Positions 9,240-38,890 of a stretch of 64,000 nucleotides of DNA are shown piece by piece (position 1 is the first letter of the stretch; each line of letters opens with the position of its first letter). The notes beneath the pieces are model-generated. The model did not search any database, had not been told where the DNA came from, and saw only the letters and a program-made list of their open reading frames with translations. A program made the translations under genes and the position numbers. The stretch lies in the NCBI RefSeq assembly GCF_014356525.2, contig NC_052511.1:49243975-49307974 (forward strand). The letters run 5' to 3'. This DNA comes from Nilaparvata lugens (lineage: Eukaryota; Arthropoda; Insecta; Hemiptera; Delphacidae).

Positions 9240-9648
9240 TTATTCATACTAGTAGTTCTGTGAACAGTAGACCTCACGCAGTATTCTCATCCACAAGTAC
9301 CTGATTGAAACTATAGACCTTATGGAAATACAGCAATAGACTGGCTTCTCCACACATCTGTGTAATCACTTGTCAGCTGATTTATGATGAATAATTCTAT
9401 AGTCTGATTTTTACTCTTATATTGGCGTATGAAGGAGGCTCCTTTTTCCTTTTATATTATCCTTGAAATGTAAAATTTCCAAAAACCTTTTATATACGTC
9501 GACGCGCAATTAAAAAAGGAACATACCTGTCAAATTTCATGAAAATCTATTACCGCGTTTCGCCGTAAATGCGCAACATATAAACATTAAGAGAAATGCC
9601 AAACCGTCGACTTGAATCTTAGACCTCACTTTGCTCGGTCAATAATGT
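9240..9648 (-). repeat. dispersed repeat, family C copy 1
   Basis: The sequence matches, in reverse complement, 16733-17185 and 56936-57187. Shared landmarks are GACCGAGCGAAGTGAGG at one end, TTACGGCGAAACGCG in the middle and CATACGCCAATATTAGAG. It contains no ORF. Family structure (SINE-like or MITE-like) cannot be settled from three copies. Confidence 0.85.
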
Positions 9649-11085: not shown

Positions 11086-11091
11086 TTCGTG
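11086..11091. repeat. left target site duplication TTCGTG
   Basis: TTCGTG abuts the left terminus AGTAGC. The identical hexamer abuts the right terminus at 26863-26868. Confidence 0.75.
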
Positions 11092-12435
11092 AGTAGCTTA
11101 GATTAGTGGGGACTGCTAAGAATTTTTGCGCAATCCGCGAGAAATAAGGAAAAAATTTTGCGCAAATCCCCCTCCCCCTCCCCCTCCCCCTCTGCGCATG
11201 CGCAAACTCCCCCTCTCATCCCCCTTTCCTCCCCCTCTCCTCCCCCTTTCCTCCCCCTCTCCTCCCCCTTTCCTCCCCCTTCCTCCCCCTCTCCCTCTCC
11301 TTCTCCTCTCCCTCTCCTTCTCCTTCTCCCTCTCCCTCTCCTCTCCTTCTCCCTCTCCCTCTCCTCTCCTTCTCCTTCTCCCTCTCCCTCTCCCTCACCC
11401 CTCTCCCAGTGAGGACGAGGGGGAGGAAGAGAGACAGTGAGGGAAAAAATAATTTCCCTTTTTCCCTTTTCTACTGACAGATTAAAGTGAATCCATCTTT
11501 CTACTGTCAAATTAAAGTGAATCCATATTTCTACTGTCAAATTAAAGTGACTCCATCTAATGTTATACTGACAGTGAGAGTCAACCTTGGAAGATATGCT
11601 CAAATTATTCTCTCAGTCAGATCTTAAGTCAGCATCATGAAGCTCTAAGAACCCAATTCAACTTATACTGACAGATTAAATTCCAGTCTAGATAAGAAAC
11701 TCTATTGTAGATGTGCTAAAACCCTATTACTCTTTAAGTTTCTCGTTCTAGAGTTAGTTGCAAGGATCTTTAAATGCAAGGATATTACTTTAAATGCAAC
11801 CCTAAAATCTTTAAATGCAAAGTGAATCCATATTTCTACTGTCAAATTAAAGTGAATCCATATTTCTACTGTCAAATTAAAGTGACTCCATCTAATGTTA
11901 TACTGACAGTGAGAGTCAACCTTGGAAGATATGCTCAAATTATTCTCTCAGTCAGATCTTAGTCAGCATCATGAATCTCTAAGAACCCAATTCAACTTAT
12001 ACTGACAGATTAATTCCAGTCTAGTATAGATAAGAAACTCTTTTGTAGATGTGCTAAATACTGACAGTGAGAGTCAACCTTGGAAGATATGCTCAAATTA
12101 TTCTCTCAGTCAGATCTTAAGTCAGCATCATGAATCTCTAAGAACCCAATTCAACTTATACTGACAGATTAAATCCCAGTCTAGTATAGATAAGAAACTC
12201 TTTTGTAGATGTGCTAAATACTGACAGTGAGAGTCAACCTTGGAAGATATGCTCAAATTATTCTCTCAGTCAGATCTTAAGTCAGCATCATGAAGCTCTA
12301 AGAACCCAATTCAACTTATACTGACAGATTAAATTCCAGTCTAGTATAGATAAGAAACTCTTTTGTAGATGTGCTAAAACCCTATTAGTCTTTAAGTTTC
12401 TCGTTCTAGAGTTAGTTGCAAGGATTTTTTCAAAT
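11092..12435 (+). repeat. left inverted arm with subterminal tandem repeats
   Basis: In order from the end: unique terminal 75 bp with TTTTTGCGCAATCC; polypyrimidine tract; TTTCCCTTTTCTACTG; short repeats of AAAGTGAATCCAT separated by CTACTGTCAAATT; then units of about 165 bp starting TGACAGTGAGAGTCAACC and ending GATGTGCTAA. Four such units are present, the first separated from the rest by TTTAAATGCAAGGATA-type repeats. The same modules occur inverted at 25630-26862, though unit order and number differ. Confidence 0.85.
11166..11415 (+). repeat. polypyrimidine tract (CT/CCCCCT-rich) in left arm
   Basis: About 250 bp are almost entirely C and T on the plus strand, built from CCCCCTCTCCT and CTCCTTCTC units. 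A perfect palindrome TGCGCATGCGCA interrupts it at 11193-11204 and matches the consensus bound by NRF-1-type factors. Mirror-symmetric homopurine tracts can form triplex DNA. ORFs on either strand here are composition artefacts. Confidence 0.85.
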
Positions 12436-12640
12436 ATTCTTTCCAAATTCATGTTAATGCATAACAATATTAGCTACAACTATTGACAACTGCTTTTTTC
12501 ATATGCACTTCAAAAAAAAAAATATTTTCTCAGTCTATATTATGTAAATTCATTTATAATTGTATATAAGTGTAAAAAACCAGTATATATTGTAATCTAC
12601 ACGAATAAAGCATTCTCTCATTAGCTTTATTTATTAGATA
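12436..12640 (+). repeat. retroelement-tail-like sequence, family D copy 1
   Basis: It follows the last subterminal unit and ends with TATATTGTAATCTACACG and AATAAAG. Nearly the same tail occurs at 15815-15960 and at 60320-60450, where it ends in (CAAT)n. A poly(A)-type signal before a short tetranucleotide run resembles the 3' end of a LINE or its SINE. The body of such an element is not present here. Confidence 0.5.
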
Positions 12641-13035
12641 GAGCGAACAATACAATAGTTGGAAAAGAAAAAACAGGCTATTGACCAAAACTTCTTCAAT
12701 TTCCTGATTTTGACACAAATCGTTCAAATATTATGTTCACTTCAATTTCAACATCAAATCTATCATATTTCGCAATCGAAATAAGCACTCATTTTATCAG
12801 TTCGAACGTTTCAAAGCAAATGACACCTTCTGTTGCTGCAATTCGATGCGTGATATACTTTCCTTATCTAATGTGATGTTACGTAGTGAAATCCATCGCT
12901 CGTGTCAAGGTTATAGAGAGAGAGAAATGGTAATGCGCTCCTATTTGTTTTAGACAAGTAGCAGACTGGTATGCACCCAATTCGAGCCTCCTCGCGCGTT
13001 GCTGCAAAAGCCATGTGTGTTGAGTTCCTTTTTAC
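12641..13035. other. non-coding stretch inside the 15.8-kb element
   Basis: No conserved coding feature was seen. A 101-codon minus-strand frame crosses 12868-13173, but it runs through the hairpin repeats that follow and has no recognisable domain. Confidence 0.4.
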
Positions 13036-13039
13036 TTCG

Positions 13040-13330
13040 TCATCCGTAAAATGGCTCTTTCCGCGTAGCGGAGCACAGCATTTTACGAATGAGGAGTAAA
13101 GAGAGAATAGAGAATTGTTCTCCACTATGATCGACCGTTCGCTACTGCTAGCAGTCAAAACAGATGGTCCCATGCGTTATCTTCTATTCTCGCTACTGCT
13201 TTTTCCTCTATTACGAAAGAGAAATCCAAAGTTCCTTTTTAATCCGTCATTCGTATACGAGCATATGCTTCTCTCCACGCAGCGATCTCTACATTACGAA
13301 TGCTGAGTAAAGGATCATGTCGGTCTCTCC
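13040..13330. repeat. two tandem hairpin units
   Basis: Unit one pairs a left arm ending CATCCGTAAAATG (from about 13030) with CATTTTACGAATGAGGAG (to about 13100). Unit two pairs CCTTTTTAATCCGTCATTC (about 13240) with ATTACGAATGCTGAGTAAAG (to about 13315). The interval between them and the following 130 bp share CCCATGCGTTATCT and TATTCTC blocks, so a segment of about 200 bp was duplicated and diverged. Confidence 0.65.
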
Positions 13331-14359
13331 TTTGATCGGTCATACGCTACTGCCAGTTTAAGTGAATCCACCTCAGCAGCTATGCCTTAGTACATCGCTT
13401 CTCACAAGTAGCAGTTTGAGATTGCCAGATAGCCCCATGCGTTATCTCCTATTCTCAAATCACCATATTTCTAAATTCCTTTTTTGCTATTATGAACAAC
13501 GAAATAAGCTATTTTGAACCATCTCTTATCACTGAAAATCCAATGTTGCCGGTTCACACACCTAGCAATGAGATTTCGCTACAACTCTTCACATTCCTGC
13601 AATATCAATTATAATTATTCCACTGTCACCAATCATTAATACTGCTGGCTTTTCTATGATTGAGATAACTACGATAATAAATACAATTGCTGTAGATTGA
13701 AGATTCCTACAACATTCCCTGTTATGACATGTTCTGTATTTTATTTTACTGAGTAGGCTCAATCCAGAAATTACTTGAACAGAAATAAACAAGTTACGAT
13801 TTTACTTCTCAACAACCATTAATGATAATGTAGATGACAAGATTTTTTAACAACAGAGTTTTAGCTGGTTCTATCTAGTTTTCAAACCCTGTGTCAACGC
13901 TACATAAATTCGTTCAAGAAAATATTTATCGTAACTACATTAATGCATCAAACTCTCAAGAGACCGATGCATTTTTTCAACATCGAGTTCAATGCATTAC
14001 TTTCAAGTATAAATAAAAGTGCCTATAGGCTCCTGACAAGAGACAACTATTATTTGATAAATTAATATCATTGATGTCACCAAAATTGTGCATCAGAGTT
14101 GAAGCAAAATTAGATGAAGTTGCACTGATGTAAAGATGTAGAAAGTACTTGAAGGTGATTGTTAAAAATGAAAGCTATTGATATAGTTATATTTGAGTAA
14201 TTATGCAAGTAGGTATTTAGATAAGTGTAAGACACTCTTGATGTATCCCTTCCAAGTCAAATGAACGTCGTGATTCAGATTAAGTTGGTGAAAGCACAAG
14301 TGGCTATTGTTGAGAGAAGCAAAGCGATTATTTGATTTCAGGTGATATGCATATTTTTT

Positions 14360-14640
14360 TTTTTTTTTGAAAACCACAGAGATATTCGGGGAACAGCAAC
14401 TAGCAGAATTTTAAAATACAAATTTGAGAGAGAGAAACTCTCTTCGATCGTAGTGACTTGTGATCACAATCACTTGGGAGATTTGTCTATCAAGAGGAAT
14501 AATTTGTCTCAAATGCTATAAGGAACATAGATTCTCTATCAATTGAGTTTCTGTCACAAGCAAGGAAAAACTTTTATGGAATACTGTAATAACACCGCAA
14601 TGCTGGAAAATTAAGATTACAATATGATGAAAGTAAGATT
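14360..14640 (+). pseudogene. short internal-deletion copy of the 19.1-20.6 kb gene
   Basis: Two blocks resemble parts of the degenerate gene downstream. GGGGAACAGCAACTAGCAG with AATTTTAAAATACAAA parallels 19825-19870. AATAACACCGCAATGCTGG parallels 20280-20300. The roughly 400 bp between these blocks in the longer copy are missing or unrecognisable. It indicates that the family exists in more than one copy within the element. Confidence 0.45.
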
Positions 14641-14644
14641 CAAG

Positions 14645-15595
14645 CAATCTTTTTGGTACGAATTTTTGTTGTTAGCATCCTTTGTTAAACAATAAATACG
14701 TGTAGAGATTTGGTTAGTTATGAGTTAGTTCTATGTCTAGTTAGATGTACACTTTCAACATGAATTAGATTACAGTTCTCCAGATAAGTATGAATAGCTT
14801 TTTTCATCTCACTACTCTCAACCCACAAAGTTAGAGTGAAAAAACACTATAATTTCATTGGCTTCAGCTGTTGTGCAATATTCTCACTCACAGTGTTGGA
14901 TAATTTCTTCATTTTGGAGGAAAGTGTGATATTTCATAGTTTCTCAAGAAACAACAGAACACCAGTCTCTCCTTGTTTTAACTGTTATTTATTCTTCACT
15001 TGTCGTTTTCACTCAGCTAACAAATAATATTAGTTGAATGACATATAACCTATAGGAAAATTTCAATGCAAAACCTGCGGATTACCGAATCTTGAATGAT
15101 TTTGCTTCTTCCTTTATGAGAAATATTAGGAAAACTATACATTTATGTTGACTCAGTGCATAAATTCAACCTTGAATATGCAAGTATATTATCTGAAAGA
15201 TTACAGAAACATGATACATAACAAATAGACAGAAAACGTTTCTGTGTAATTACAAATATTACTAGTCTATTACTCACAGCCTTTGCTCACCTCTCAACTG
15301 AACATCTAAAACTGAGTTTTTTTTTTTTCATCATGATAACATGAGAAGCAGAGTTAGAGTGGAGGATAAGGAGGAGGATGTGGAGGAGGAGGAGCACACA
15401 TCAAATCAAAGGTTCTTTGATGAAACTATTTGATAAATTATACTAATAGATCTGTTCACATTACAAGAGTTGGAAATTACTGATTCAGTTAATAGTTATT
15501 ACTTGCATATTAACTTGTTGAATCACTGTTTGATTCTGTAATATGAAAGCAAGAAATAATAATACTCACTTTGAGATTCCATGTAGTGGTAAAAC
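14645..15595. other. AT-rich stretch, no gene recognised
   Basis: No exon, domain or shared repeat was identified. A 63-codon plus-strand frame at 14836-15027 has no supporting feature. Confidence 0.4.
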
Positions 15596-15605
15596 ATATG
15601 CAAGT

Positions 15606-15960
15606 GTAGTGAGAGTCAACCTTGGAAGATATGCTCAAATTATTCTCTCAGTCAGATCTTAAGTCAGCATCATGAATCTCTAAGAACCCAATTCAACTTA
15701 TACTGACAGATTAAATTCCAGTCTAGTATAGATAAGAAACTCTTTTGTAGATGTGCTAAAACCCTATTACTCTTTAAGTTTCTCGTTCTAGAGTTAGTTG
15801 CAAGGATGTTTTCAAATATTCTTTCCAAATTCATGTTAATGCATAACAATATTAGCTACAACTATTGACAACTGCTTTTTTCATATGCACTTCAAAAAAA
15901 TATTTTCTCAGTCTATATTATGTAAATTCATTTGTAATTGTATATAAGTGTAAAAATATA
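15606..15960 (+). repeat. subterminal unit plus family D tail, internal copy
   Basis: One unit GTGAGAGTCAACCTTGG...GATGTGCTAA is followed by the same TTCTCGTTCTAGAGTTAG segment and tail found at 12350-12590. It is in the orientation of the left arm and lies 3 kb inward. It ends in (TA)n next to a different repeat. Confidence 0.8.
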
Positions 15961-15965
15961 TATAT

Positions 15966-16226
15966 ATAGGGTGACACAAGAATAACTGTACAACTGCACT
16001 GTATAACTGTACTGTATATACAGGTTACGAAATACATGTTTCACACATCTTCACGTCTGAACTACTGAACTGATTAACTGGAAATTTTGCATGAAGATTC
16101 TTAATTTACTGAGGATGGTTATTGGCTAATATTTTAATTAATCAATTGAAAACAATGTCAATCAAATGAAAAGAATCTATTCGTGCTTTCAACTGCCCTT
16201 GCGAAGCACGGGTAACTCCTGCTCGT
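15966..16226 (+). repeat. dispersed repeat with GAAGCACGGGTAA end (Helitron-like tail)
   Basis: The segment ends CCTTGCGAAGCACGGGTAAC followed by TCCTGCTCGTAG. A related end, CCTTGCGGAGCACGGGTTAC then CTGCTAGT, is at 61312-61336. CTAG followed by T is the usual 3' terminus of Helitrons, so these may be tails of one family. The bodies share only short blocks such as TTAATTTACTGAGGAT. Confidence 0.4.
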
Positions 16227-16732
16227 AGTTAATAAACATTTCCAGGATCACTCTCCTAGGCTTATTTTCCTAGGAAGATTGTCATTTCCTAATTCTATGT
16301 CTATTCCTATGCTCAAAAGGATTCCTATCTTCAAAATGATTTTTTCAAGTTCATACTAGAATTTGGAAGAATTGAGATTTAATAGAAACATTTGAAAGAA
16401 AGTCAACATTTTCAAACATGAAGAAAGCTGAAATCACCAAGCATTCTTTTCTCAGTAGAGGAAGTAAACGATTCAAGTCTTCAAGATAAGAAGGAAGAAG
16501 CCATCTGGCTTTAATATGGTTCACATTATTATAAACGCTATTTGAAAGGAAAGAAGCTGATAAGATAGACACACTGAATAAGATGCTTGTTTATGTAAAA
16601 GCTTCATCCATCTTGAAGCTATATGCTATCTGAATGAATAAACATTTACATTTTACTTTAAATTTCACTATTCATTTTCTTCAAATAAAACTTCTCTTTC
16701 TCTTTAATTATCAATATTCTGTTCGCTTTTAT

Positions 16733-17185
16733 TGACCGAGCGAAGTGAGGTATAAGATTCAAGTCGACGGTTTCGCATTTCTCTTAATGTTTAAATGTTT
16801 ATATGTTGCGCATTTACGGCGAAACGCGCTAATAGATTTTCATGAAATTTGACAGCTATGTTCCTTTTTTAATTGCGCGCCGACGTATATACAAGGTTTT
16901 TGGGAATTTTGCATTTCAAGGATGATATAAAAGGAAAAAGGAGCCTTCTTCATACGCCAATATTAGAGTAAAATTCAGACTATAGAATTATTCATCATAA
17001 ATCAGCTGACAAGTGATTACACAGATGTGTGGAGAAGCCAGTCTATTACTGTATTTCTATAATGTCTATAGTTTCAATCACAGTATATAGAAGAAGAAAT
17101 ATCTAAATACCGTGGTTTCAATCAGGTACTTGTGGATGAGAATACTGTGTGAGGTCTACTGTTCACAGAACTACTAGTTCTATTC
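16733..17185 (+). repeat. dispersed repeat, family C copy 2
   Basis: Starts TTGACCGAGCGAAGTGAGG and runs through TTTACGGCGAAACGCG, CCAATATTAGAGTAAA and CAGATGTGTGGAGAAGCC to CTACTGTTCACAGAACTAC. It is the reverse complement of 9240-9648. A 45-bp stretch near 17070-17120 is an insertion relative to the first copy. Confidence 0.85.
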
Positions 17186-17193
17186 CAAAAGTG

Positions 17194-17331
17194 ATGTACT
17201 TTTTCTTCTCTTCTTTCCAAACATATTCATCGTCTCCTGATCCTCTCTTCTTCTTCCTCTTTATCTTCATCATTTTCTTCTTCAAGAAGAATAAGAGGCA
17301 CAGACAACTAGGCCAGAATAGAATTTACTAG
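17194..17331 (+). CDS. possible 45-aa single-pass membrane peptide
   Basis: From the ATG at 17194 the frame has a Phe/Leu/Ile-rich stretch of about 15 residues, FFFLFIFIIFFF at its core, followed by a basic segment KKNKRHRQ and a stop at 17329-17331. The arrangement suits a small membrane protein, but the DNA is TTC-rich and such composition produces Phe/Leu runs by chance. It begins just inside the end of the family C repeat. Unproven. Confidence 0.15.
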   Translation: MYFFFSSFQTYSSSPDPLFFFLFIFIIFFFKKNKRHRQLGQNRIY

Positions 17332-17339
17332 TAACAATA

Positions 17340-17638
17340 AATAATCTTGTAATGAATGGTGTTTAGACATGCAACTCCATTTTTACAAAATGCAGGCTTT
17401 TCTTTATTTGTAATCATGAGTTAACAATTGGTAATTGACTCAAACGTACAGAACATGATCTGATAAGCCACTGAACAATGAGCGAGGTCATGATGATGTA
17501 TAGAGAGGCGTTTCCCAGAGATTGGAATGCAGACCAACACTCTCCACATCATCAGACAGATGTTCAAAAGAAGAACGAAATGAGAACCAATGTCAAATAA
17601 TACTTCTAATATATTTTCAACAAATGTACATCATGATA
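17340..17638. other. no gene recognised
   Basis: The stretch between the family C repeat and the integrase remnant has no open frame of note and no shared repeat. Confidence 0.4.
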
Positions 17639-17639
17639 T

Positions 17640-17868
17640 TTACAATTGATCTTTACTAATATAGCTAGGTGTTGAAAACCCAATCCATTTCACTAACAGT
17701 CCTTTTTTATCACGTTTTAATATTTTTTCAATCAAATACACTTGTCTCTCCGTTTCGTTTAATTGCGTTTTTTTTAATTTCTTCTGCATAAAACCGCCCA
17801 CTAATTACTTCTCCGTTTAGATCTTGCAAGCTATACGTTACAGGTTGAGAAGGAAATATAGAGTGTAA
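17640..17868 (-). pseudogene. C-terminal fragment of a Polinton/Maverick-type integrase with chromodomain-like end
   Basis: Reading the minus strand, an open stretch of about 75 codons has no ATG and ends with TAA at 17642-17640. It contains a QPVTYSLQDLNGE-like segment, then GRFYAEEIKK, then VYLIEKILKR and LLVKWIGF. In Polinton/Maverick integrases (the F54H12.3-type transposon proteins) the C-terminus has the same order: a 'P-x-Y-x-L-x-D-x2-G-E-x-I-x-G-x-FY' segment, an E-[IL]-x-K turn and a chromodomain 'Y-x-[IV]-E-K-[IV]-L ... LVKW-x-G-[YF]'. The end after KWIGF is degenerate compared with the usual 'S-W' finish. The DDE catalytic core would lie upstream (rightward), but a stop at 17869-17871 and the small genes beginning at 18032 replace it. 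It is therefore a truncated relic, or the last exon of a gene whose other parts are lost. The family match is from remembered motifs, not a search. Confidence 0.65.
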
Positions 17869-18031
17869 TCAGACTAAACCGCCTTCATATATTATTCTAA
17901 CTTACAACTAATACATTTATTCCTTAAACCTCTACAAGTATTACAATTAATTTTCACATTCAAAGCTTTTAGTATTTAATAGTTTTATTCTCTCCTCAAT
18001 TAACGAGTTCATCATAATCTCTGTAAAAAAG

Positions 18032-18451
18032 TTAAAGTTTGTACAACATCGCTGATTCGCCACACATTTTCATAATTTCAAATGTAAATCTTACACTATC
18101 AATGTTTTTATCTGTTAACCTATCATCAATGAAATAATACATTCGAATATTCAACCAACCTAATGAATTACAATAGCAAAATTCAGGAATTTCCTTTAAT
18201 TCGCATCTTTGATGTCTATCAACTATATTCTTATTTATAATATAACATACGCTTATATGTTCTGACTTCTGTTCTTCACTTTTACCAGGTTTTATAAATG
18301 TTAAATATTCCTCAAACGTTAGTCCTTCTTTTCCGAAATTATTCAATTCTAATATTGTTTTGTCAATAAGTTCGAAATAACAACATCTATATTTTTTATC
18401 GATTTTATTCGAAAAATAGTTCTTATCAAATGAAATTGAATCCATCTCCAA
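18032..18451 (-). CDS. small intronless gene, paralogue of its upstream neighbour
   Basis: 139 aa, ATG at 18451, stop at 18034-18032. I do not recognise the family. It resembles the product of 18476-18865. Both have a YRC near the start of the shared part, a Leu-rich helix, a (Y)LTF motif after about 25 residues, then an H-I-x-V-C segment, then an I-P-x-x-[FY]-x-C-x-C segment. The conserved Cys and His could bind a metal, but no known zinc-finger spacing is evident. Only 24 bp separate it from the end of the upstream paralogue on the same strand, which is tight for an insect nuclear genome and more like a compact viral or transposon gene block. It lies inside the 15.8-kb element, next to the integrase remnant and on the same strand. 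Intact, so possibly recently functional. Confidence 0.6.
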   Translation of the reverse strand: MEMDSISFDKNYFSNKIDKKYRCCYFELIDKTILELNNFGKEGLTFEEYLTFIKPGKSEEQKSEHISVCYIINKNIVDRHQRCELKEIPEFCYCNSLGWLNIRMYYFIDDRLTDKNIDSVRFTFEIMKMCGESAMLYKL

Positions 18452-18475
18452 TCTGAAATTAAACAGAATATGCTA

Positions 18476-18865
18476 TCAATCTTGTTCTAAGCCTGTCTCA
18501 TCTGAAGAATCTCGTAAAAAATTCCAGATAAGTTTATTTAATTGTTCTTTTGTTAAATGTTTATTTTTTTCTGTTATAACCTTCTTAATTTTATCGATAG
18601 ACTCTTTAAGATGACCACAATCACATCTGTATGAGCCTGGGATATTGCCATTCTCCCAGAATTTATCATATGATGTACCGTATAATTCACAAACTAAAAT
18701 ATGATTATAGTTATCACTATGCCAAACTCCTAATTTTTCATAATCTCTCACAAATGTTAAATATTGTAGATTTGTCCATCCTTTTTCTGCTAACTGGTCC
18801 AATAATTGGTGATGCGTCTCCAATAGTTCAGTTAGTTCACAACGATAACTTTGTATTCTCGCCAT
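18476..18865 (-). CDS. small intronless gene, first of a tandem paralogous pair
   Basis: 129 aa, ATG at 18865, stop at 18478-18476. It starts MARIQSYRCEL, has a predicted helical stretch (TELLETHHQLLDQLAEKG), YLTF, HILVCEL, and a late IPGSYRCDCG segment followed by a Lys/Glu-rich helix. The order of these blocks matches 18032-18451, so a tandem duplication followed by divergence is likely. No signal peptide or membrane segment. Function unknown. Candidates are a regulatory or host-interaction protein of the element. AT-rich sequence upstream (18870-19080) could hold the promoter. Confidence 0.6.
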   Translation of the reverse strand: MARIQSYRCELTELLETHHQLLDQLAEKGWTNLQYLTFVRDYEKLGVWHSDNYNHILVCELYGTSYDKFWENGNIPGSYRCDCGHLKESIDKIKKVITEKNKHLTKEQLNKLIWNFLRDSSDETGLEQD

Positions 18866-19143
18866 TTTTTCTAAAGAAACAGAATCATATTTACGTAATT
18901 CATTAAAATGCCTATTTATAATATACTAAGCTTATATATTCATCAAATGATTTCCGTTCGAGAGCACATATCTGAAAACATATTAAACTATAAGTTGGAA
19001 TGATCAGCGTATATAATCAATTGTAAAATATTTACTTAGTTAGTAATTGACTCTTATCTATCCAAGACGGTTCACTAAAGTGTGATTTTCTAACTACAAA
19101 TCATCATTTTTGTTTCCAAGGAGAATATAAAGAAGACTATAAT

Positions 19144-20581
19144 GTGATAGCAGATAACAATAAAACTGTTGGGATTGATTGTTTGAGTTGGGCCAATAGC
19201 AAAACCTTTGAGCCTATTCAAGATAGCTTGTCACTCTTGAATGATAGTAGAAATTATTTCCAAAATGCTCCAATTTATTCTGTGTCCTTGGCTAAAATGT
19301 GGAGAAAACTGACAGATAATTTGAAAAATAGTTGTTGTTTGATCTATAATGATCTTCTACAGTATGTTTACTGGGGGTAATAGCAATACCAGCAAATTGA
19401 GTGGAGTACAAGTAAAGCTTCCCACTGACCCACAACATAGAAATAAAATAATATCCTATGTAATCTCTGCATTTAGCTTTAATCTACTACCTATTAATTA
19501 TGTGGAAATTTTCGAGGATCCATCAAACAAAAATAATATCAGTTTCTCACAAAAGTGTGGAGAGTGGAGAGACTTTTTTCTCCAAGTCAACCGCAGTTTT
19601 CTCTACCATATCCAAAGTTGTTGACCTAGATGAGTTGGGTCTTGTAGCAACAGGTAACTTAATACCACAAGTCTTAAGAAAACGGCCAAACATAACTTGT
19701 GAGCTTCCTCCATACCCTTGTCTCCTATCTCAGTGCTATCAGCCAAGAAGCGTAAGCTAGAACTGGATGAAATTGATCTAAAAACGGAGGAAAATTGAGT
19801 TTTTTGAAGCCACACAGTCATTTAGGGAACAGCATAAGCAGCTAGAAGAATTTTAAAATAGAAAATTTGAGAGGAACTTGGACCATTCACATTGGCGAAA
19901 TTTTGAGCCTAGTGGAGTTTATAATGTGACTGCATTTACTGTGAATAATACTGGGAAATTCCCATATGTAGGTGTACTAGGGGAGAAAGATGGTTTGAAA
20001 AACGTTTACTTTGTAAAGGGCTGTCATAAAAATGTTTTCATTAATGCATACAAAGCTATCGAAACTCTCAAGAAAGAGGGTTATTTTGTAATCCCTTACA
20101 CTGACAAAAAAGAAATTATTTGTCTACCAAGGGAAGAGAAAATTTGTGTAATTACAGTCAATGCTATGTCAAGCTATAATGGGCATACATTTCCTAGAAT
20201 AGAATCAGTTAAGTTTCTCCCAGATGTTTGGAAAAACTTGGAAGACACTCCCTTCACACAAAAAGAAGTGGAGCAGTATAATAACATCACAGTGCTGGAA
20301 ATTAAAGGGAAAGTGAAAGTAGGAGAGTGTAAAAAGAGTTACCACAAGGTATAGAGTTAGTCATTATTGCAATAAAAGAAGTGTACAATAGAAACAATAC
20401 TCGGTATATACTACAGTTTGAAAATGTGGAAGCATTTTCAAACTATTGGTTAGAGGAAGAATTTGAAAAGCCGAACATAGATTTGAATTATAAAATTAGA
20501 ATCAAGCTAGATGTTTTATTCCTAGTAGGAATAAGGAAAGAGTTACTTTCTGTATTTGATTCGGGCATAGATATGCTTTGA
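19144..20581 (+). pseudogene. frameshifted gene of unknown family
   Basis: Coding-like sequence continues through successive frames. Frame one covers 19144-19380 (through MWRKLTDNL). A second frame overlaps it at 19349-19624 (through NYVEIFEDPSNKNN and CGEWRDFF). A third continues to about 19760 (through DLDELGLVATGNLIPQ). A long open frame at 19878-20354 holds KFPYVGVLGEKDGLKNVYF and a Cys/Lys-rich end. A further frame at 20381-20581 contains LQFENVEAFSNYW. Overlaps at each step and protein-like composition suggest one gene of roughly 450 codons broken by several small indels, or a spliced gene with short introns. No family was recognised. A shortened relative at 14360-14640 shows it is multi-copy. 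It could be a structural or replication protein of the host element. Confidence 0.5.
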
Positions 20582-20589
20582 TGTATGTA

Positions 20590-21150
20590 TAATAATTAAA
20601 AAATAAAGAAAATTATTGTGACAATCCTCATGACATTGAGCTCTCACCCCTTCTCCTGATTCCTCTCTCATTTTTTCTTTCCTGCTAAACGAGTGGAGGA
20701 GGAGGACAAAGGAGGAGGACAAAGGAGGAGAACGTCAATTTTTGTCCTCGGAGGGGAGGAGGAGGAGAACAATTGTCCTCCGAGGAGAGGAGGAGGAGAA
20801 AAATTTAAGTAAAAATGAACTTACATGTGTTGATTTGACGAAATGAAGCTCAGCTAGCACCTCGGCTATGATTTTCTAGATGCAGGTAAGGTTCCTTCAC
20901 GAGATTGCTTATGAGTAGTGAGGTGAGAAAATGCTGTGGAAAAACAATGTAACCAAACTGTAACACTAAATATATATTATAAAAATCAACACTTTCACAA
21001 AAATATGAGAATATAACAAAAATTTTCACTTACAATCAATAATGACCTCGAGCTAAAGCTCTGGGGAGTATCGGCAGTGTTCGCCAATTGTGATACACAC
21101 CTCCTTTGTGTTTCTATCTCACTCGTACAAGCATGCAACAGACAGAGAAA
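20590..21150. other. spacer with GGAGGA-rich repeat
   Basis: Between the broken gene and the next promoter, 20690-20805 contains repeated GAGGAGGAGGACAA-type units with mirrored blocks (GTCCTCGGAGGGGAGG, GTCCTCCGAGGAGAGG). The remainder is AT-rich and shows no gene. Confidence 0.6.
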
Positions 21151-21158
21151 CGACTTGC

Positions 21159-21194
21159 TATATAATCGCTTTTCTCAGTGGAAAATCATCATTC
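21159..21194 (+). promoter_or_regulatory. TATA box and initiator of the 21.2-kb gene
   Basis: TATATAA at 21159-21165 lies 32 bp upstream of the A in TCATTC (21189-21194), which matches the arthropod initiator TCAKTY. This is the standard spacing for a TATA/Inr core promoter and predicts a transcript start near 21191, giving a 40-nt leader before the ATG at 21231. Confidence 0.6.
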
Positions 21195-21230
21195 ACGTTA
21201 GAGAGCTATTAGTACGCGCTTCTCGACACC

Positions 21231-22770
21231 ATGGACAAGTCACATCGTGCATCCTCATCCTCATTCTTATTACCACACAGCCCGCCTGCGGAGAGGGAGC
21301 TGAACTACTGGGAACAGCAGAAGCAGCAGAAGAAGCAGCAGAAAAGCCTCAGCTCAGCTGCCACCTCTGCCGCCCCCTCCTCCTCAGCCTCAACCTCAGA
21401 TCCCTTGAAGAAACAAGGGATCTTCGTCCAAGATGAGGATTCCAGCATCATCGTGGGAGACAGCAGCCCTCCCCCGCAAGCTACTTGGGCACCACGCCGA
21501 GCAGCGCTCACATCGGTACCCGCCACCAAGCAGTCTGTCAAGAGGAGGCTGTTTGTCGACGATGAGGAGCCTGGCGTCCTCACTCAATCAAAGGTTAGCA
21601 TACAAAAAATTATTATTGTAATGTACACAAAATCTTTATAAAATGTGAATCTTATAAATCTTTTGTGTGCATTTACTGATTCTTATACTGCGAGCGAAGA
21701 CTGAGCTATCTAATTGTACTATCAAAACAATCCGAACACAGATAAATTGTCATGATGGTTGCATTGAAATTTGGATAAAAATTCAAAACATGTTTTAGTA
21801 ATTTCGATAATAAATTCGAATATGTTGCATGAAACAATTCAATTATCTACCAATTTGAATTGAGTTCAAGTAATCGGAGAATTTCCGAGTTATTACTTAT
21901 ATATATTACTTACTATATCAAATTACTGATTCGAATAATGCATAAACTGTTTGTGTGAAACAAAAATTTGCATGATTAATGATTAATTTATGTTTTCTGC
22001 AATAACTTTGATGACAAATTACTTATTACTTATATGAAAAATAGTTGTTGTTTGAGTGTGAAACAAAAATTTGCATGAGTAATGAAACGTGAAATTCGAA
22101 TAATATTGTTATTATAAATCCAATCATATTATTCTGCAATAACTTGATGACAAATTACTTATTACTTATATGAAAATTCCAATCATATGTTGATTGTAAT
22201 GAACTGAAAAAATTTTTTCGATAATTGAGAGTTATGTCAGAGAATTTCCGAGTTATTACTCACAGTTTTGAGTAGTGAATCTGTTGAGCAAGTTCTCCCT
22301 CTCTCGTATGATTTTAAACCTGAAACAAATAAGAGTCTGTTGAAATATTTTTTCAACAGAAACGTGTGGTGGATGAGGACAGCTCCATAACGCCTCTTTT
22401 GCGGGAGGAGGAGGAGGAGGAGGAAGCGGAGAACGAGATGGAGATGGAGGAGTTGCTTGCGATTATTAATCGGACAGAGAAACCGTGGACGCCTCTCCGG
22501 CAGTTGGTGGAGAACACGCCGTACCCCATCGTGGCGGTACGACAGATTACCAACCAACATGGTCGGCACATAATATTAAAAGTCCATTTGACAGCTTCAC
22601 GACTGACGGACATATACATGCCGGAGAGGTACACCCAGGGTTTGACCTCTAAAGACGTCGATCATTTCGACAAAAATTGCAAAAATCTTTGTCTCTTTGT
22701 GAAGCATGTTAATGCTTTTTTAACTGACATAAATATTGTCAAGTGCAAAATTAGCAAATTTGGCATTTGA
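21231..22770 (+). CDS. two-exon acidic, low-complexity protein with a conserved-looking C-terminal domain
   Basis: Spliced CDS join(21231..21593, 22360..22770), 257 aa, phase 0; donor AAG/GTTAGC and acceptor TTTCAACAG. The start is in good context (CACCATGG) 40 nt after the predicted initiator. Residues 1-50 are Ser/Gln-rich. Two DEDSSI motifs lie near 68 and 126, a VKRRLF basic patch precedes the exon border, and 137-155 is a run of Glu. From about 163 to 240 there is a compact domain. It starts PWTPLRQL, contains YPIVAVRQI and HGRHIILKVH (two likely beta-strands), then DIYMPERY, LTSKDVDHF and LCLFVKH. This strand pattern recalls OB-fold-like single-strand DNA-binding or transposon accessory proteins, but that is only a guess. 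Likely nuclear given the basic and acidic patches. It lies in the 15.8-kb element, so it may be an element gene that carries an intron, or a captured host gene. Confidence 0.7.
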
Positions 22771-22805
22771 CAATATTTATCTCGGTGGGCATTAACATGC
22801 TTCAC
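22699..22805. repeat. inverted repeat spanning the stop codon
   Basis: GTGAAGCATGTTAATGC (22699-22715) is mirrored by GCATTAACATGCTTCAC (22789-22805). Inside, ATAAATATTGTCAA is mirrored by TTGACAATATTTAT. The TGA stop at 22768-22770 lies inside the hairpin, so the last 24 codons of the protein are encoded by one arm and the loop. Confidence 0.85.
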
Positions 22806-22836
22806 ATGTTAATATGTATGTGTAATAGTTACCATC

Positions 22837-22842
22837 AATAAA
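22837..22842 (+). terminator. poly(A) signal of the 21.2-kb gene
   Basis: AATAAA lies 67 bp after the stop codon, just beyond the hairpin at 22699-22805. It supports the exon model. Confidence 0.6.
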
Positions 22843-22849
22843 ATGTGTC

Positions 22850-23345
22850 CATATTTGATAAAAAATTGTTTTCAATTCTTACCTGTTGTTGATAAGTTCG
22901 TAATGAATATCACACTAGTATACGTGTTGAACACTCTCCACACTATGCAAGTTGCATTGAGTGATAAGAAAAATTAAAATGTGTTTTATAGAATGAAGTG
23001 TGTACGCACGCGCAAGCATACGCATGAGCTGACATCACTCGGTCGCTCACTGTGTCAAGGTCGGCTCAACGCTCTGCCTTCCTTGTTGCGAAGTGAGGGC
23101 GTTGGTCCTTACACATCTGGTGTGATGCATTTCATTCATTCACGACCTTGCAAGGTCTTGTGTACATCGTACACATGGCTGGATTGGTATTCCATTCATT
23201 CTTATCTGTATGACTTTTTCACATCAACTATTTGAAATGCATTTTGAAAATTCATTTAAAATAGATGATCTGAATAGGCGAATTCAAAGTATTATTCCAA
23301 ATTAATAGAAAATTCCATTTTTTCTTTTAGATAGTGTAATGATTA
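22850..23345. other. non-coding stretch within the element
   Basis: AT-rich DNA with a more GC-rich island at 23000-23170 (ACGCACGCGCAAGCATACGC). An 84-codon frame at 22981-23235 crosses it but has no recognisable motif. No repeat copy elsewhere in the window was seen. Confidence 0.4.
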
Positions 23346-23353
23346 ATTAATTA

Positions 23354-24140
23354 ACTTTAGTTCTGTGGGTAGATGACACAAGTTGATAAGTCACATTTTT
23401 GACCATATTGAGTTATGCATATGGTTGTGTTCAGAAAAATTAGATCTATAAGATGGTATAACTAAATATGTTGTACCTTTTTAAATAGCTGAGATATAGA
23501 CCTTGCTTAAGCCTGATACTGCATTTTCTTCCAAACCCCAAGTTGACAAATATTGATAAGTACATATATCTCAACACTCTTCTACCGGTTTGTATTATAA
23601 TCCAATTATCAAAAGATGACAAAATTTGATAAGTGTATGTACTGGTAGGCTATTATAAAATCTGAAAATCAATAACCCATATTGAGAACTACATAACCCA
23701 TACAACTTTGCAAACAGTTCAAGTTTGGTTAACTTGATCAATACTTGTAAATAATATCAATTAATTTTTAAAACATATATTCAAATTTCTATAAAATCGA
23801 TTTTTAAGATATTACCTATACTGTTACATTGTGATTTGAAACATTTGACAGATGGCAAAACATGATATCTCTGACATCACTTGCAAAAATTCTCAATAGT
23901 TAATTTAAATAAATTGTTTTATCCCTTGATATTTAATAGTCGAGGATCAGCTGATTATATTAGTGTAAAATGCGTAAGACTATTTAAATAGTCGAGGATC
24001 ATCTGATTATATTAGTGTAAAATGGGTAAGAAAAAATATTATAGAATGTTTGCAGCTATGCCAAACTTTCAAATTGCTCTCCTGAAAAGTTTACAAATCA
24101 TGACTTATCAGCTTGTGTCATCTACCCACAGAGTTAATGT
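23354..24140. mobile_element. non-autonomous DNA transposon, family E copy 1
   Basis: Termini CTGTGGGTAGATGACACAAG (about 23358) and its mirror ending CTACCCACAG (about 24132) bound about 780 bp without coding capacity. The same element lies in reverse orientation at 59410-60132. This copy has a 60-bp tandem duplication (AATAGTCGAGGATCA twice at 23935-24030) that the other lacks. The edges here read TTAA on both sides, with a few unmatched bases on the left. The second copy does not show TTAA. Confidence 0.85.
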
Positions 24141-24395
24141 TCGAGCATTGAGTTGAAAGGTAATGAAAATATTGAATGTTGAGAACACTCTTTGTGCATG
24201 TTGATATTCTTCGCGTGAGCGTTAAATCATTCTATTGGAGGAAGTTCTTTCCAATGTACTTTCTTTCCCCAACTTCTTTTCCATGTCTGTACTTTCTACC
24301 AAATTACGCACCAATACTTCCAAGGATTCAGACATAAACTTGTAGGAATCTAAAAATTTAATTTTGCCTACTGAAAGTGTCAAAAAATTAAAAAT

Positions 24396-24638
24396 ATGTA
24401 TCAAACAAATAATTTCTTGTGCGAGAATACTCGTATGAAAAGTATGAAATTGGCGCCTATGTATACGAATGCTCAGAAAAGAAACTTTGCACGATATGGA
24501 TTCTTCTACAACGGAAAGGAATTACAGTGTGTTTATTGCTTGCATGCACTGAGACTGCATAAAGCTCGCACATGTTGTCTGTCTACAGACAAAGAAAGAC
24601 CGTTTAATTACTCTATAATAGTGCCAGCCTACACATAG
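24396..24638 (+). CDS. short BIR-like (IAP repeat) ORF, probably truncated
   Basis: 80 aa. The central part NFARYGFFYNG followed by CVYC fits the core of a BIR domain, where an [LF]-A-x-x-G-F-[FY]-Y-x-G segment precedes C-x2-C. A later HKARTC supplies a His and Cys, but the spacing C-x2-C ... H-x4-C is shorter than the usual C-x2-C-x16-H-x6-C, and the Trp and Asp landmarks of the second half are missing. It would therefore be a partial or degenerate BIR protein. Known BIR proteins block caspases or act in cell division, and insect DNA viruses often carry them, which would fit an element of viral descent. The frame ends in TAG 20 bp before the next short ORF. The start may be upstream or the ORF may be a relic. 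Confidence 0.4.
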   Translation: MYQTNNFLCENTRMKSMKLAPMYTNAQKRNFARYGFFYNGKELQCVYCLHALRLHKARTCCLSTDKERPFNYSIIVPAYT

Positions 24639-24656
24639 TTTTACTACTCGACAACG

Positions 24657-24872
24657 ATGGATCCGGCAAAGTGGTTAGCTGCTGACAACGAATTGGAAGT
24701 GAGGTTAAAAAACTGCATAGACTGGTATGATGAGTGTGAAAGTGCAATTCAGAAATCATCTAGTGAAAATTATAGTTTGGCGAAACAATTAAAGGCTATT
24801 TTTCTAAGCACAGTTAATTTGAACGATATAAAGACTATTTGTGCTATTACCGTCCATACAATTTGTCTGTAG
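24657..24872 (+). CDS. short ORF, unknown
   Basis: 71 aa from ATG at 24657. It begins MDPAKWLAADNELE and is rich in charged residues and Cys at the start (KNCIDWYDECESAI), likely helical. It ends near a Cys/Thr-rich tail that looks out of frame. No family recognised. It directly follows the BIR-like ORF on the same strand and could be its continuation after a frameshift or a second small element gene. Confidence 0.3.
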   Translation: MDPAKWLAADNELEVRLKNCIDWYDECESAIQKSSSENYSLAKQLKAIFLSTVNLNDIKTICAITVHTICL

Positions 24873-24989
24873 ATAAATTGATTAAAATTGAAGATGAAGT
24901 TATGATGTATTGTTGTAGTGAAATTTTTTAATTCAGATATTTCCTTGAACATTTTGGTTTAGTATCAGTGTAGACTTGATTGAGTGAGC

Positions 24990-25080
24990 ACGCGAGAAAC
25001 GCCCCCTCAGACACAACTGTTACAGCTTGAGCTTATCAAGAGATACGCCCCCTCAGAGTCAACTCTGTTACAGCTAAGTG
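24990..25080 (+). repeat. tandem pair of about 50-bp units
   Basis: ACGCCCCCTCAGA followed by CAACT and TGTTACAGCT occurs twice, starting near 24998 and 25044. It sits just upstream of the short ORF at 25111. Confidence 0.7.
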
Positions 25081-25110
25081 CACATTATTGTTCATAACAT
25101 AATCGAGGTC

Positions 25111-25436
25111 ATGCAGTGTTTTAGCTTTGCTAAATTCAAAAAATTATCTCGCCTCTTGATGTCAATTTCATTCAATGAATTTGATTCTATTGCAAAACTA
25201 TTAAATTTTCAACAGGATTCCAAGGCGATGATTTACCGTTAACAAAAACAGAAAATGTACATTTTCCAATTTTATCTGAGATTTTCGAATTATTGAACAT
25301 ACTAGATACAGGTCATCTACATTATTGTAGTGCAAATGATTTCTCAACTATTGTTACAATACCGATGAACTTTGGAAATGCTTGTATGACATTGCAGATA
25401 AAAAATGTAAAAGATCAACTTAGATCATTCTGTTAA
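25111..25436 (+). pseudogene. broken ORF of about 105 codons, unknown family
   Basis: An ATG at 25111 opens a frame that stays protein-like to about 25205 (FAKFKKLSRLLMS, FNEFDSIAKLL). Coding-like sequence then continues in a different frame from about 25209 to a TAA at 25434-25436 (LPLTKTENVHFP, LSEIFELLNILD). A TTTTCAACAG at the switch could instead be a splice acceptor. Function unknown. It is the last coding-like sequence before the right arm. Confidence 0.35.
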
Positions 25437-25629
25437 GACATCAATAGAGCTGATACCCCCAGTGATATAGGTCTGAGGATATCTATAGCTATTTTTGGAA
25501 TGCTTGTTCGTACTAAATTTACTATAGATATTCTCGGAGAGCACACTTAAAAAGCAACGCCTGTGGTTTGTACAGCACATAGAAAATTTCAATATAAATT
25601 TGTGAAATTTTTCTTAACTGTCGGGTGGA

Positions 25630-26862
25630 AAGCAAACCAATCAGTATAAAGATGGATTCACTTTAATTTGTCAGTAGAAAAGGGAAAAAGGGAAATTATT
25701 TTTTCACTCATCTAGCATTCACTTTAATTTTACAGTATAAAGATGTATTCACTCAGTATAAAGATGGATTCACTTTGCATTTAAAGATTTTAGGGTTGCA
25801 TTTAAAGTAATATCCTTGCATTTAAAGATCCTTGCAACTAACTCTAGAACGAGAAACTTAAAGACTAATAGGGTTTTAGCACATCTACAAAAGAGTTTCT
25901 TATCTATACTAGACTGGAATTAATCTGTCAGTATAAGTTGAATGGGTTCTTAGAGATTCATGATGCTGACTTAAGATCTGACTGAGAGAATAATTTGAGC
26001 ATATCTTCCAAGGTTGACTCTCACTGTCAGTATTTAGCACATCTACAAAAGAGTTTCTTATCTATACTAGACTGGAATTAATCTGTCAGTATAAGTTGAA
26101 TGGGTTCTTAGAGATTCATGATGCTGACTTAAGATCTGACTGAGAGAATAATTTGAGCATATCTTCCAAGGTTGACTCTCACTGTCAGTATTTAGCACAT
26201 CTACAAAAGAGTTTCTTATCTATACTAGACTGGAATTTAATCTGTCAGTATAAGTTGAATTGGGTTCTTAGAGATTCATGATGCTGACTTAAGATCTGAC
26301 TGAGAGAATAATTTGAGCATATCTTCCAAGGTTGACTCTCACTGTCAGTATAACATTAGATGGAGTCACTTTAATTTGACAGTAGAAATATGGATTCACT
26401 TAATTTGACAGTAGAAAGATGGATTCACTTTAATCTGTCAGTAGAAAAGGGAAAAAGGGAAATTATTTTTTCCCTCACTGTCTCTCTTCCTCCCCCTCGT
26501 CCTCACTGGGAGAGGGGTGAGGGAGAGGGAGAGGGAGGGAGAAGGAGAGGAGAGGAGAGGGAGAGGGAGAGGGAGGGAGAGGAGAAGGAGAGGAGAGGGA
26601 GAGGGAGGGAGAGGAGAAGGAGAGGAGAGGGAGAAGGAGAGGAGAGGGAGAGGGGGAGGAAAGGGGGAGGAGAGGGGGAGGAAAGGGGGGAGGAAGGGGG
26701 GAGGAAGGGGGAGGAGAGGGGGAGGAAAGGGGGAGGAGAGGGGGGAGTTTGCGCATGCGCAGAGGGGGAGGGGGGAGGGGGAGGGGATTTGCGCAAAATT
26801 TTTTCCTTATTTCTCGCGGATTGCGCAAAAATTCTTAGCAGTCCCCACTAATCTAAGCTACT
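25630..26862 (-). repeat. right inverted arm with subterminal tandem repeats
   Basis: Reverse complement of the modules of the left arm: three 165-bp units (25870-26355), CAAATTAAAGTGAATCC-type short repeats, the polypurine tract and the terminal segment GGATTGCGCAAAAATTC ending CTAAGCTACT at 26862. It also has a second set of GTATAAAGATGGATTCAC blocks at 25645-25780. Confidence 0.85.
26505..26790 (+). repeat. polypurine tract (GGGGGAGGA-rich) in right arm
   Basis: Mirror of the left-arm pyrimidine tract, with TGCGCATGCGCA at 26750-26761. The long Glu/Gly/Arg frames across it are composition artefacts. Confidence 0.85.
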
Positions 26863-26868
26863 TTCGTG
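26863..26868. repeat. right target site duplication TTCGTG
   Basis: Directly follows the right terminus GCTACT and equals the hexamer at 11086-11091. Confidence 0.75.
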
Positions 26869-32949: not shown

Positions 32950-34865
32950 TTTTCATTTCATAGTATTGCTTTTCGTAACATTAAAGGACTGATGATTCGA
33001 AGTATTTTCTATCTGGTTGTGAATATAGATGTTATTATGGAATGTTGAATATTATTGGTTAACTTTGCTCATATATCTATTTGTATTCATGATAAAGAAA
33101 GCTTGGTAAATATTTTGTTTATTATAGTGGTTTTGTATAGAATAATTATTGACTAGCGTGAGTTTTAACTTTTGACTTACTGAAAGACAAAGTCGTTGTC
33201 CGTCCTGTTTGTATGTTCTACAATAACTTTAGAAAGAATGGATCAATCTTCTCAAATTATGAACACATATTCTCCGAACCCTTTTACAGGTCAAGTTTGT
33301 GGACAACAAATTGACTCACTCTTTTGTCCTTTTTCAGGATATAAGAAACATTGAAAGGGCATTAGAAAAAAATTGTTATGATCTATCATTTGGTCAGCTG
33401 AAGAATTCTTTGCATGCAATTACTACAGTTTTTTCATTCCATATCATTCGTAACATCATCTGAGGTTATTTGGGAGCAAAGTTAGTAGACTGTCTACTAA
33501 CGTTGATTTGGGAGCACACACACACTGACATAATAGGATTTTAGCTGGTTCATTAGACTTTACAACTTTTGTATCAACAAAATGATATGGGTTCAATTTG
33601 CGGTTTTGGCTATTTATTTTCTCTTGGAACTATGTATCGAAATCATGTATCAACATTAAAAAAATCTTTGAGTGTCAAAGATGTTGAAGCGACAGAGTAA
33701 TATTTTTAGAGTAATTTTTCATTTCAAATGACATTCCCAATGGAAACTGCTGTCAAATTATTATTGTAAGAGAAATATTTAGCAGCTTTAGTAATTTTCA
33801 TAAACTCTGTATAATCAAAAGTTGAGGTTTCAAAGATTACAATGCAAAACAGTTCTTGAGCGAGTTCTCTGAACCACGGGGTCACAAGTCATACAGATAG
33901 AAAAAGATAAATTCTTTTAACCGTATATTATCATAATATGCTAGAATAGTATCAGTAGTTATTAGTAATTTTTCATATAGTGATAGCTAATAGTGGGTAT
34001 AGTAATTAAAAATAATAGCTATTTAGTATTTGATATAGCCTATTACTAATAAGTTTCATAGAATGTGTAAATTATTTATTATGCAGATTTTTATATAATT
34101 GCATTCATCAATTCCATTGAATTAAATTGAATGTCATTCTGGGATATATTATGTCACACACTGTCAACAAATTATTACTTATATTTCTTTTCTATAAAAT
34201 ATATTATTGAAAGGAAATAAATTATGGAGGTTCTGGTTTTCTTCGTGATCTATTCATTATTTGAATATTCATTGTTTATGAATTTTGTACTCAGAAATAA
34301 ATATGGCTGTCTAGCAAGTAGTCAAATAGAAAAAAGCATGAAATATTTTTTCTGTATACCCAGTTTCCAGTAAGTTACAATTATTATCAAAGATATAAAG
34401 AATAATTTTATTGACTTTAATTTTTATCAATGGACTAATCATAGAATAGATGGTATGGTGATTTATAATAAATTATTTGATTTGAAGTTTCACTTTGAAT
34501 TGGAAAAAAGTATAACAATAATTGATGGATCCTCAATTTAATCATTGATAAAAATTAATCTGGAAGATCTCATTATCAGATTATTGCCAATGGTAATAGA
34601 ATTGACTCATTATTTATTTATTTATGCATTCAGAGAAATAAAATAATTCCAAACTTATTATGAATTATATTGGAAAAGAACAACAGCTTTTATGTTGATA
34701 TCAGCAGCATGAGATAATACTGAGAGGGAATTATGGAGTACTGTATTATCCACAGAAAATATATTTCCTTTCCCTCTCTGAGAAGTTACTGCATAGTGTG
34801 TGATTCACTGTATGGTGTGTGCATGTGTGCGTGTATGCGCTTCATAAAATGAAAAGACAGCAGAG
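32950..34865. other. AT-rich stretch, no gene recognised
   Basis: No coding exon. 33140-33350 resembles the 'TGACTTACTGAAAGACAAAG' type of dispersed repeat, but no second copy is in the window. The remainder is AT-rich. Confidence 0.4.
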
Positions 34866-34869
34866 CAGA
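34861..34869. repeat. left target duplication CAGAGCAGA
   Basis: Nine bases abut the left terminus ACGTGCATG and recur exactly at 47737-47745 beyond the right terminus. Confidence 0.85.
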
Positions 34870-37800: not shown

Positions 37801-38890
37801 TGTTTGATTGTTCTGATGAAATACCATATAACAAATAATAATGTTGGGAAATAAACATAAAACAACTTATTACATAAAAATGCATTGCAAGACGTACCTT
37901 TATTTCATCAATAACTATAATTGAACATATGATACACTAATTAATATTTGAAATACCTTTATAAAATCACAACTATTGTTCACATTCTGCAAACAGAAAG
38001 GAGAATAGAAAAAACACTTTATTTGCAATGGATGTTGAAAATCGCAAACTATGTGACATATAAGATACACAATTAATATCTGATTAGCCTTATACAATCG
38101 AAACTAATCGTTCACATTTTGCAAACAGAAAGATAAGAAAAATCATCCTAATTTGCAATGGATGAAAATTGCAAACTATTCGTTCATAAGATGCACAAAT
38201 TAATATTTAAAATACCTTCATACAATCGAAAATAATCGTTCACATTTTGCAAACTGAAAAATAGAAAAACATCCTTATTTGCAATGGATGAAAATCGCAA
38301 ACTATATGAACATATGATACACTAATAAATTTGAATACCTTTATGCAATCAAAACTAATCGTTCACATTTTGCAAACTGAAAGAATAGAGAAATCATCGT
38401 AATTTGCAATTGATGGAAATTGCAAACTATATGAACATATGATACACAAATTAATATTTGAACTACCTTATGCAATCAAAATAATCGTTCACATTTTGCA
38501 AACTGAAAAAATAGAAAAACATCCTTATTTGCAATGGATGAAAATCGCAAACTATATGAACATATGATACACTAATTAATATTTGAACTACCTTATGCAA
38601 TCAAAACTAATCGTTCACATTTTGCAAACTGAAAGAATAGAGAAATCATCGTAATTTGCAATTGATGGAAATTGCAAACTATATGAACATATGATACACA
38701 AATTAATATTTGAACTACCTTATGCAATCAAAACTAATCGTTCACATTTTGCAAACTGAAAGAATAGAGAAATCATCCTAATTTGCAATTGATGTAATCG
38801 CAAACTATATGAATATGATACCAAATTAATATTTGAACTACTTTATGCAATCAAAACTAATCGTTCACATTTTGCAAACTGAAAGAAATT
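34870..38890 (+). repeat. left arm of the Foldback-type element
   Basis: The outer zone (34870-35560) has about four units with CTGGCCCGGCCACATT and TATTTTCTACTATTTTC. The middle zone (35560-37590) has six to seven units of about 330 bp with ATCGATAGCTCATCA and a poly-C run after TTTAAAGATTA. A unique link follows at 37590-37885. The inner zone (37888-38890) has about eight units with ATCGTTCACATTTTGCAAAC. Frames here repeat with the unit and are not genes. Confidence 0.9.

Follow-up and report, generated by a model that had tools for sequence, protein, structure and literature searches.

A mobile element of 15,771 bp (15.8 kb) was delimited at positions 11092-26862 of a 64,000-nucleotide stretch of the Nilaparvata lugens genome (C8:49243975-49307974 of the 1.085-Gb assembly; this whole stretch is called the window here). 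The element is very probably a non-autonomous derivative of a Polinton/Maverick family of this planthopper, which relatives encoding the Polinton core likely copy and insert in trans; in its predicted gene content, the family appears adintovirus-like.

Boundaries, arms and genomic copies

An earlier note, made from the sequence of the window alone, had described a 15.8-kb element with mirrored termini, inverted arms that share a polypyrimidine tract and subterminal tandem modules, and TTCGTG abutting both ends. All of these traits were recovered, and the boundaries are as follows:

11086..11091, unstranded: left target-site duplication TTCGTG (sequence read)
11092..12429, plus strand: left terminal inverted arm (1,338 bp)
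25824..26862, minus strand: right terminal inverted arm (1,039 bp)
26863..26868, unstranded: right target-site duplication TTCGTG (sequence read)

The duplication stands directly outside both termini (AGTAGCTTAG...CTAAGCTACT), without a gap, and the long terminal inverted repeats have the ends AG...CT. From the end inward, both arms are composed of a terminus, a polypyrimidine tract, repeats of 29-30 bp and an array of 158-160-bp units. In the left arm, these modules are the unique terminus (11092-11166), the polypyrimidine tract (~11167-11407), 30-bp repeats (11468-11558) and a 160-bp array (11900-12378); the right arm, read in the forward direction, contains a 158-bp array (25875-26351), 29-bp repeats (26358-26447), a polypurine tract (~26519-26786) and the terminus. 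The arms are 96.5% identical across 1000 aligned columns. Identity is complete over the terminal 76 bp (76/76) and between 11408-11555 and its partner in the right arm (146/146 aligned columns).

When the genome was searched with the first 122 bp of the terminus (best 40 of 418 candidates scored), at least 41 matches were obtained, 18 of which form nine inward-facing pairs (the window pair included), whereas 23 were unpaired. Among the matches listed, perfect 6-bp duplications flank eight of the nine pairs, each with a different sequence (TTCGTG in the window, ACCTTG, CGCGTT, AACTTC, TGCTAG, CGAGTC, CATGTT and ACCATT). Because perfect duplications recur in so many pairs, and in eight different sequences, the paired duplication of the window element is not due to chance. 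The eight duplication-flanked copies range from 0.3 to 15.8 kb, the short ones including copies of 0.3, 1.2 and 1.7 kb. One of 15.6 kb (L030-31, duplication TGCTAG) is collinear with the interior of the window element over 7,537 of 13,394 bases (56%), and so is locus L046-48, the right end of which was not found, over 8,065 of 13,394 bases (60%).

Core genes, interior and affiliation of the element

The termini of the window element are also present on the core-encoding loci L032, L036, L038 and L040, at each of which one end was read. The gene set on same-ended copies comprises PolB, an rve integrase, an A32-type ATPase, a double-jelly-roll capsid protein, a protease, PLA2 and BIR proteins. 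Compared with Pfam, L038 (left end read) matched the rve integrase (9.3e-13) and a Pox_A32-type ATPase (3.1e-8), and L036 (right end read) matched the double-jelly-roll capsid (3.4e-91), PLA2 (3.4e-11) and BIR (2.3e-18); an adenovirus-type C5 protease (4.7e-4) was just below the cut-off in L036, and a second, weaker BIR match (1.3e-3) was below it as well. L032 carries the same capsid as L036. L049, which is the continuation of L036, carries the same integrase (rve 9.3e-13) and ATPase and a frame of 1141 amino acids (aa), which is 98.7% identical to the PolB frame of L027 over 687 aa and 99.7% identical to a frame of L038 over 621 aa. The PolB family itself (PF03175) was matched by frames in L027 (7.9e-14) and L028 (3.4e-6), which belong to the composite C4 locus considered below; genome-wide, PF03175 gave at least 92 matches (best 91 of 1,717 candidates scored), a count that may extend beyond this Polinton family. 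Long PolB frames were also observed as opposed pairs 12-17 kb apart, resembling inverted Polinton dimers (for example C3:4951702(-)/4968336(+), C15:80341406(-)/80356018(+), C15:32065919(-)/32079967(+) and C1720:23631(-)/35422(+)). The core-encoding loci L049 (at 2014) and L050 (at ~6329) end abruptly within the 30-bp arm repeats, without polypyrimidine tract and terminus, which reflects either real truncation or an assembly break.

The window element, in contrast, encodes no detectable core. None of the 124 stop-to-stop frames of at least 40 aa between the arms (12430-25820) matched PolB, rve integrase, A32 ATPase, C5 protease or capsid in Pfam (E <= 0.05). Of the core set, only a 116-bp scrap of the PolB gene and a fragment of the BIR gene are detectably kept. 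Core-bearing loci match 6,056 of the 15,771 bases as Polinton-derived remains (arms, PolB scrap, 3' part of the BIR gene and smaller pieces), and 3,679 of the 13,394 bases of the interior alone. The following features were assigned to the interior:

15608..15956, plus strand: internal direct copy of 12226-12578 (97.7% identity)
16728..17178, unstranded: nested repeat, family members also at 9248-9647 and 56930-57189
18035..18472, minus strand: open frame of 146 aa without family match, 2 changes relative to L030 and L046
18479..18925, minus strand: open frame of 149 aa without a match above the family cut-off, adjoining the 146-aa frame
19077..20771, plus strand: disrupted gene B, remnant of an 804-aa protein, internal segments missing, split over frames
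21231..21593, plus strand: gene A exon 1, inferred from the N. lugens proteins P0001-P0008, splice site inferred
22360..22770, plus strand: gene A exon 2, conserved C-terminal domain
23362..24132, unstranded: nested repeat, second family copy at 59407-60133
24271..24386, minus strand: PolB gene scrap of 116 bp, 98% identical to L027 9025-9140, inside the frame with the PF03175 match
24388..25893, plus strand: 3' end of a Polinton BIR (IAP-like) gene with the adjoining downstream sequence, 99.4% identity to L036

The segment copied at 15608-15956 consists of the inner left arm and the adjoining interior. Positions 18133-18603 were found also in L028 and L036 (97%), both of which are loci with core genes; judged by eye, the 149-aa frame is possibly a paralog of the 146-aa frame. 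The nested repeat at 23362-24132 is missing from the collinear locus L048, which therefore provides its empty site. The BIR match in 24375-24635 was below the family cut-off (20.0 versus 22.9 bits).

Polinton/Maverick terminal inverted repeats begin 5'-AG. The window element resembles Polintons/Mavericks and adintoviruses in its 6-bp duplication, long inverted arms, length of 15-16 kb and AG...CT ends, and in the presence of PolB, rve integrase, A32 ATPase, double-jelly-roll capsid and C5-type protease on same-ended loci; a target duplication of 6 bp is given for Polintons in PMC10045372. It differs from them in that no core gene was detectable, in that its interior contains gene A and the broken copy of a second transposon, and in that its arms hold the polypyrimidine tract and the 158-160-bp tandem modules. 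Because Polinton ends are present while the Polinton genes were not found, the element was filed as a non-autonomous derivative and not as a complete Polinton. With non-autonomous DNA transposons resembling miniature inverted-repeat transposable elements, the family shares the combination of a coding family's ends with a deleted interior, and short copies (0.3, 1.2 and 1.7 kb) between matching duplications; unlike such derivatives, the window element has the full 15-16 kb and contains open frames that other loci share. The earlier note's suggestion of a derived Polinton-type element without replication and capsid genes is supported, and the comparison of copies for PolB, ATPase and capsid that it had proposed located these genes on same-ended loci, with one intact end each. 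Among the genes that it had called unknown, gene B belongs to a second transposon, which had not been foreseen.

Mobilization in trans is likely, because ends and duplication length are shared with integrase-coding relatives. We further infer that the PolB of these relatives would copy the element, which their integrase would then insert. The arms would have been retained since the helper proteins would recognize them, and the core would have been lost through replacement, as by the gene-B units in L021 and L022 (see below).

Several observations weigh against this affiliation. The main gap is that each core-bearing copy has one intact end: in the sequence read, L038 has the left end only, and L036/L049 and L032/L050 have the right end only. 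No copy was found that combines all core genes with both ends and matching duplications, and the 1141-aa PolB frame of L049 has no PF03175 match of its own. The negative result for core genes covers the 124 frames of at least 40 aa between the arms. Moreover, some copies are one-armed, and the ninth pair (23 kb, C4, L027-L029) has unlike flanks (ACGCTG versus GAACAA). Because its flanks differ and pieces of PolB are repeated in it, this pair is a composite.

Three other readings were weighed. A self-sufficient new element, with gene B or gene A as the transposase and Polinton-like ends by convergence, is quite unlikely, despite the fact that gene B is under constraint and open in 41 of the 55 near-full-length copies among the matches listed, and that gene A recurs downstream of it: gene-B units differ from it in their ends and lack a duplication, the window copy of gene B is broken, and copies of only 0.3-1.7 kb with 6-bp duplications exist. 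Foldback (FB) elements have long arms of tandem modules, which is the likeness to the arms described here, and the target-site duplication of foldback and Mutator-like (MULE) elements is 9 bp. That the window element is of this FB/MULE-like kind is highly improbable, although the window also contains an inverted-arm element (34870-47736) that is flanked by a 9-bp duplication; the duplication is 6 bp rather than 9 bp in eight of nine pairs, and the ends are common to copies with integrase and PolB. Two independent insertions around an unrelated interval, which the earlier note had named as the refuting outcome, are scarcely credible and not what is seen, given TTCGTG on both sides, the identical terminal 76 bp, the duplications shared in eight of nine pairs and the partly collinear interiors of L030-31 and L046-48, even if the one-armed copies and the C4 pair point in that direction.

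Gene B and the transposon that carries it

Gene B of the window (19077-20771) stems from a separate transposon of 2.9-3.0 kb, of which it is a broken relic; in other copies, the gene is an 804-aa open frame. A genome search with gene B yielded at least 57 matches (best 56 of 1,514 candidates scored); 55 are nearly full-length, and the gene is without a stop in the 41 copies mentioned above. Relatives of the protein were found among 34 database proteins, including records from Schistocerca, Planococcus, Cacopsylla, Cinara and Aphis, and thus occur in Hemiptera and Orthoptera. Among seven open copies, omega (the ratio of nonsynonymous to synonymous rates) ranged from 0.16 to 0.37 in 20 of 21 pairs, the remaining pair being without synonymous change. 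The units in L021, L022, L041 and L042 are 2,922-3,019 bp long and have inverted ends matching over 31 bases (the gene-B frame of L022 is split); no such ends were found around the window copy. Genome-wide, 363 occurrences of the 27-base end were counted at no more than 1 mismatch (control, 0), and 100 listed end positions contained 26 inward pairs less than 10 kb apart, 17 of which are 2.6-3.4 kb apart. Two further arrangements were observed. At L043-L045, a partial second gene-B copy is located upstream of gene B, with TTAGG-like repeats beside it, and at C5:53572313-53573659 gene-B ends, all oriented alike, form a tandem array with a period of ~147 bp.

In L021 and in L022, one flank of the unit derives from the BIR side of the Polinton core and the other from the opposite side, that of the 321-aa gene; the breakpoints differ, and the unit thus occupies the position of the core. 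The unit of L041 joins two places of window-type elements that are non-adjacent in the available loci, and that of L054/55 joins the BIR side to a PolB region. At 13 of the 14 junctions for which uninterrupted sequence is known, the empty site has the same 4-mer beside the joint, namely TTCA at the left and TGAA, TGAT or TGAG at the right; two of these 13 share one site, and at L054 (one of them) agreement is seen in 13 of 21 rows. L057 alone deviates (TGAA versus CGAA), in paralogs of ~90% identity. TGAT and TGAG both follow the target sequence, which shows that the 4-mer is part of the target; the unit itself is TATAGG...CCTATA. Ten units, from 10 of the 17 pairs 2.6-3.4 kb apart, were read regardless of the 4-mer; their 20 ends had TTCA in 13 cases, ATCA in 4, CTCA in 2 and TTTA in 1, which places NTCA at 19 of 20 ends, versus a background of 2.1% for TCA. 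A target duplication of 2-12 bp was absent in 10/10 units. In 7 of the 10, one or both flanks (34 bp or more) are within a Polinton-family locus. For four units, both empty sites are known, and each of these units occupies the place of the sequence between two sites.

The predicted structure of protein B gave weak matches to rolling-circle initiators (pT181-type) and to OB folds, without any sequence match. Protein B may be an HUH-type replication initiator, which would be a likeness to Helitrons and Replitrons. Helitrons have no terminal inverted repeats and insert between A and T. The gene-B unit is similar to them in lacking a duplication, but differs in its terminal inverted repeats, in NTCA beside both ends and in the missing target sequence. 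Replitrons, according to PMC10741241, have no inverted repeats and target duplications of 2-8 bp, in contrast to the inverted 27-31-bp ends and missing duplication of the gene-B unit.

We tentatively propose that protein B represents a new eukaryotic transposon superfamily, an NTCA-cutting hyperparasite that deletes Polinton cores, and that the window element is a late product of it. A protein like a rolling-circle initiator, with OB domains binding single-stranded DNA, would cut beside NTCA on both strands; both inverted unit ends would be joined at such cuts without duplication, replacing the sequence between the two sites. The main niche of the transposon would be other mobile elements: it would invade Polintons and delete their polymerase and capsid core, and the resulting defective carriers would be spread by the remaining Polintons, the window element being a late and decayed outcome. 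It is also conceivable, and equally tentative, that the flanks became non-adjacent through recombination between two separately inserted units, with loss of the intervening stretch. In L041, 309 bp separate two equally oriented units, which would fit such a course, whereas the empty sites, which have the same 4-mer on their own side at all testable junctions except that of L057, argue against it; a single insertion beside one NTCA would not yield TGAN on the other side, and no unit with adjacent flanks was seen among the four testable on both sides.

The gene-B transposon, found in Polintons in place of the core, is the most novel component of this system. A virus-like Polinton family, derivatives without its core and a second transposon at the place of the core amount to nested parasites in one insect genome that can be counted copy by copy. 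If protein B indeed joins DNA at NTCA without duplication, this would be a transposition chemistry not found in the literature searched, and the gene-B system would show directly how Polintons turn into satellites. No literature on this planthopper Polinton family was recognized by title and beginning of the abstract among the matches listed.

Gene A and other features of the window

The window copy of gene A, whose two exons (21231-21593 and 22360-22770) are connected by inferred splice sites, is open. At E <= 0.001 it has eight database relatives, all from N. lugens, and its predicted structure model is of poor quality. A genome search with exon 2 yielded at least 150 matches (best 150 of 1,521 candidates scored). 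Omega was 0.30-0.55 for the window copy and three near copies, and 0.17 relative to the L030 copy, at a synonymous divergence (dS) of 1.9, which is near saturation. When the two match lists were compared by eye, gene A was located 1.6-2.8 kb downstream of gene B on the same strand in at least 15 of 55 gene-B loci; among the matches listed, none was seen at this distance on the opposite strand.

The window contains a second giant inverted-repeat element at 34870-47736, whose arms of ~3.8 kb are 93% identical and consist of arrays of 328-333-bp and 125-127-bp units. It is flanked by the 9-bp sequence CAGAGCAGA at 34861-34869 and 47737-47745, and is a foldback-type element with a stretch inside that, judged by eye, is reverse transcriptase-like. 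Further tandem arrays are present at 439-1188 (191-bp units) and 61624-62321 (101-bp units).

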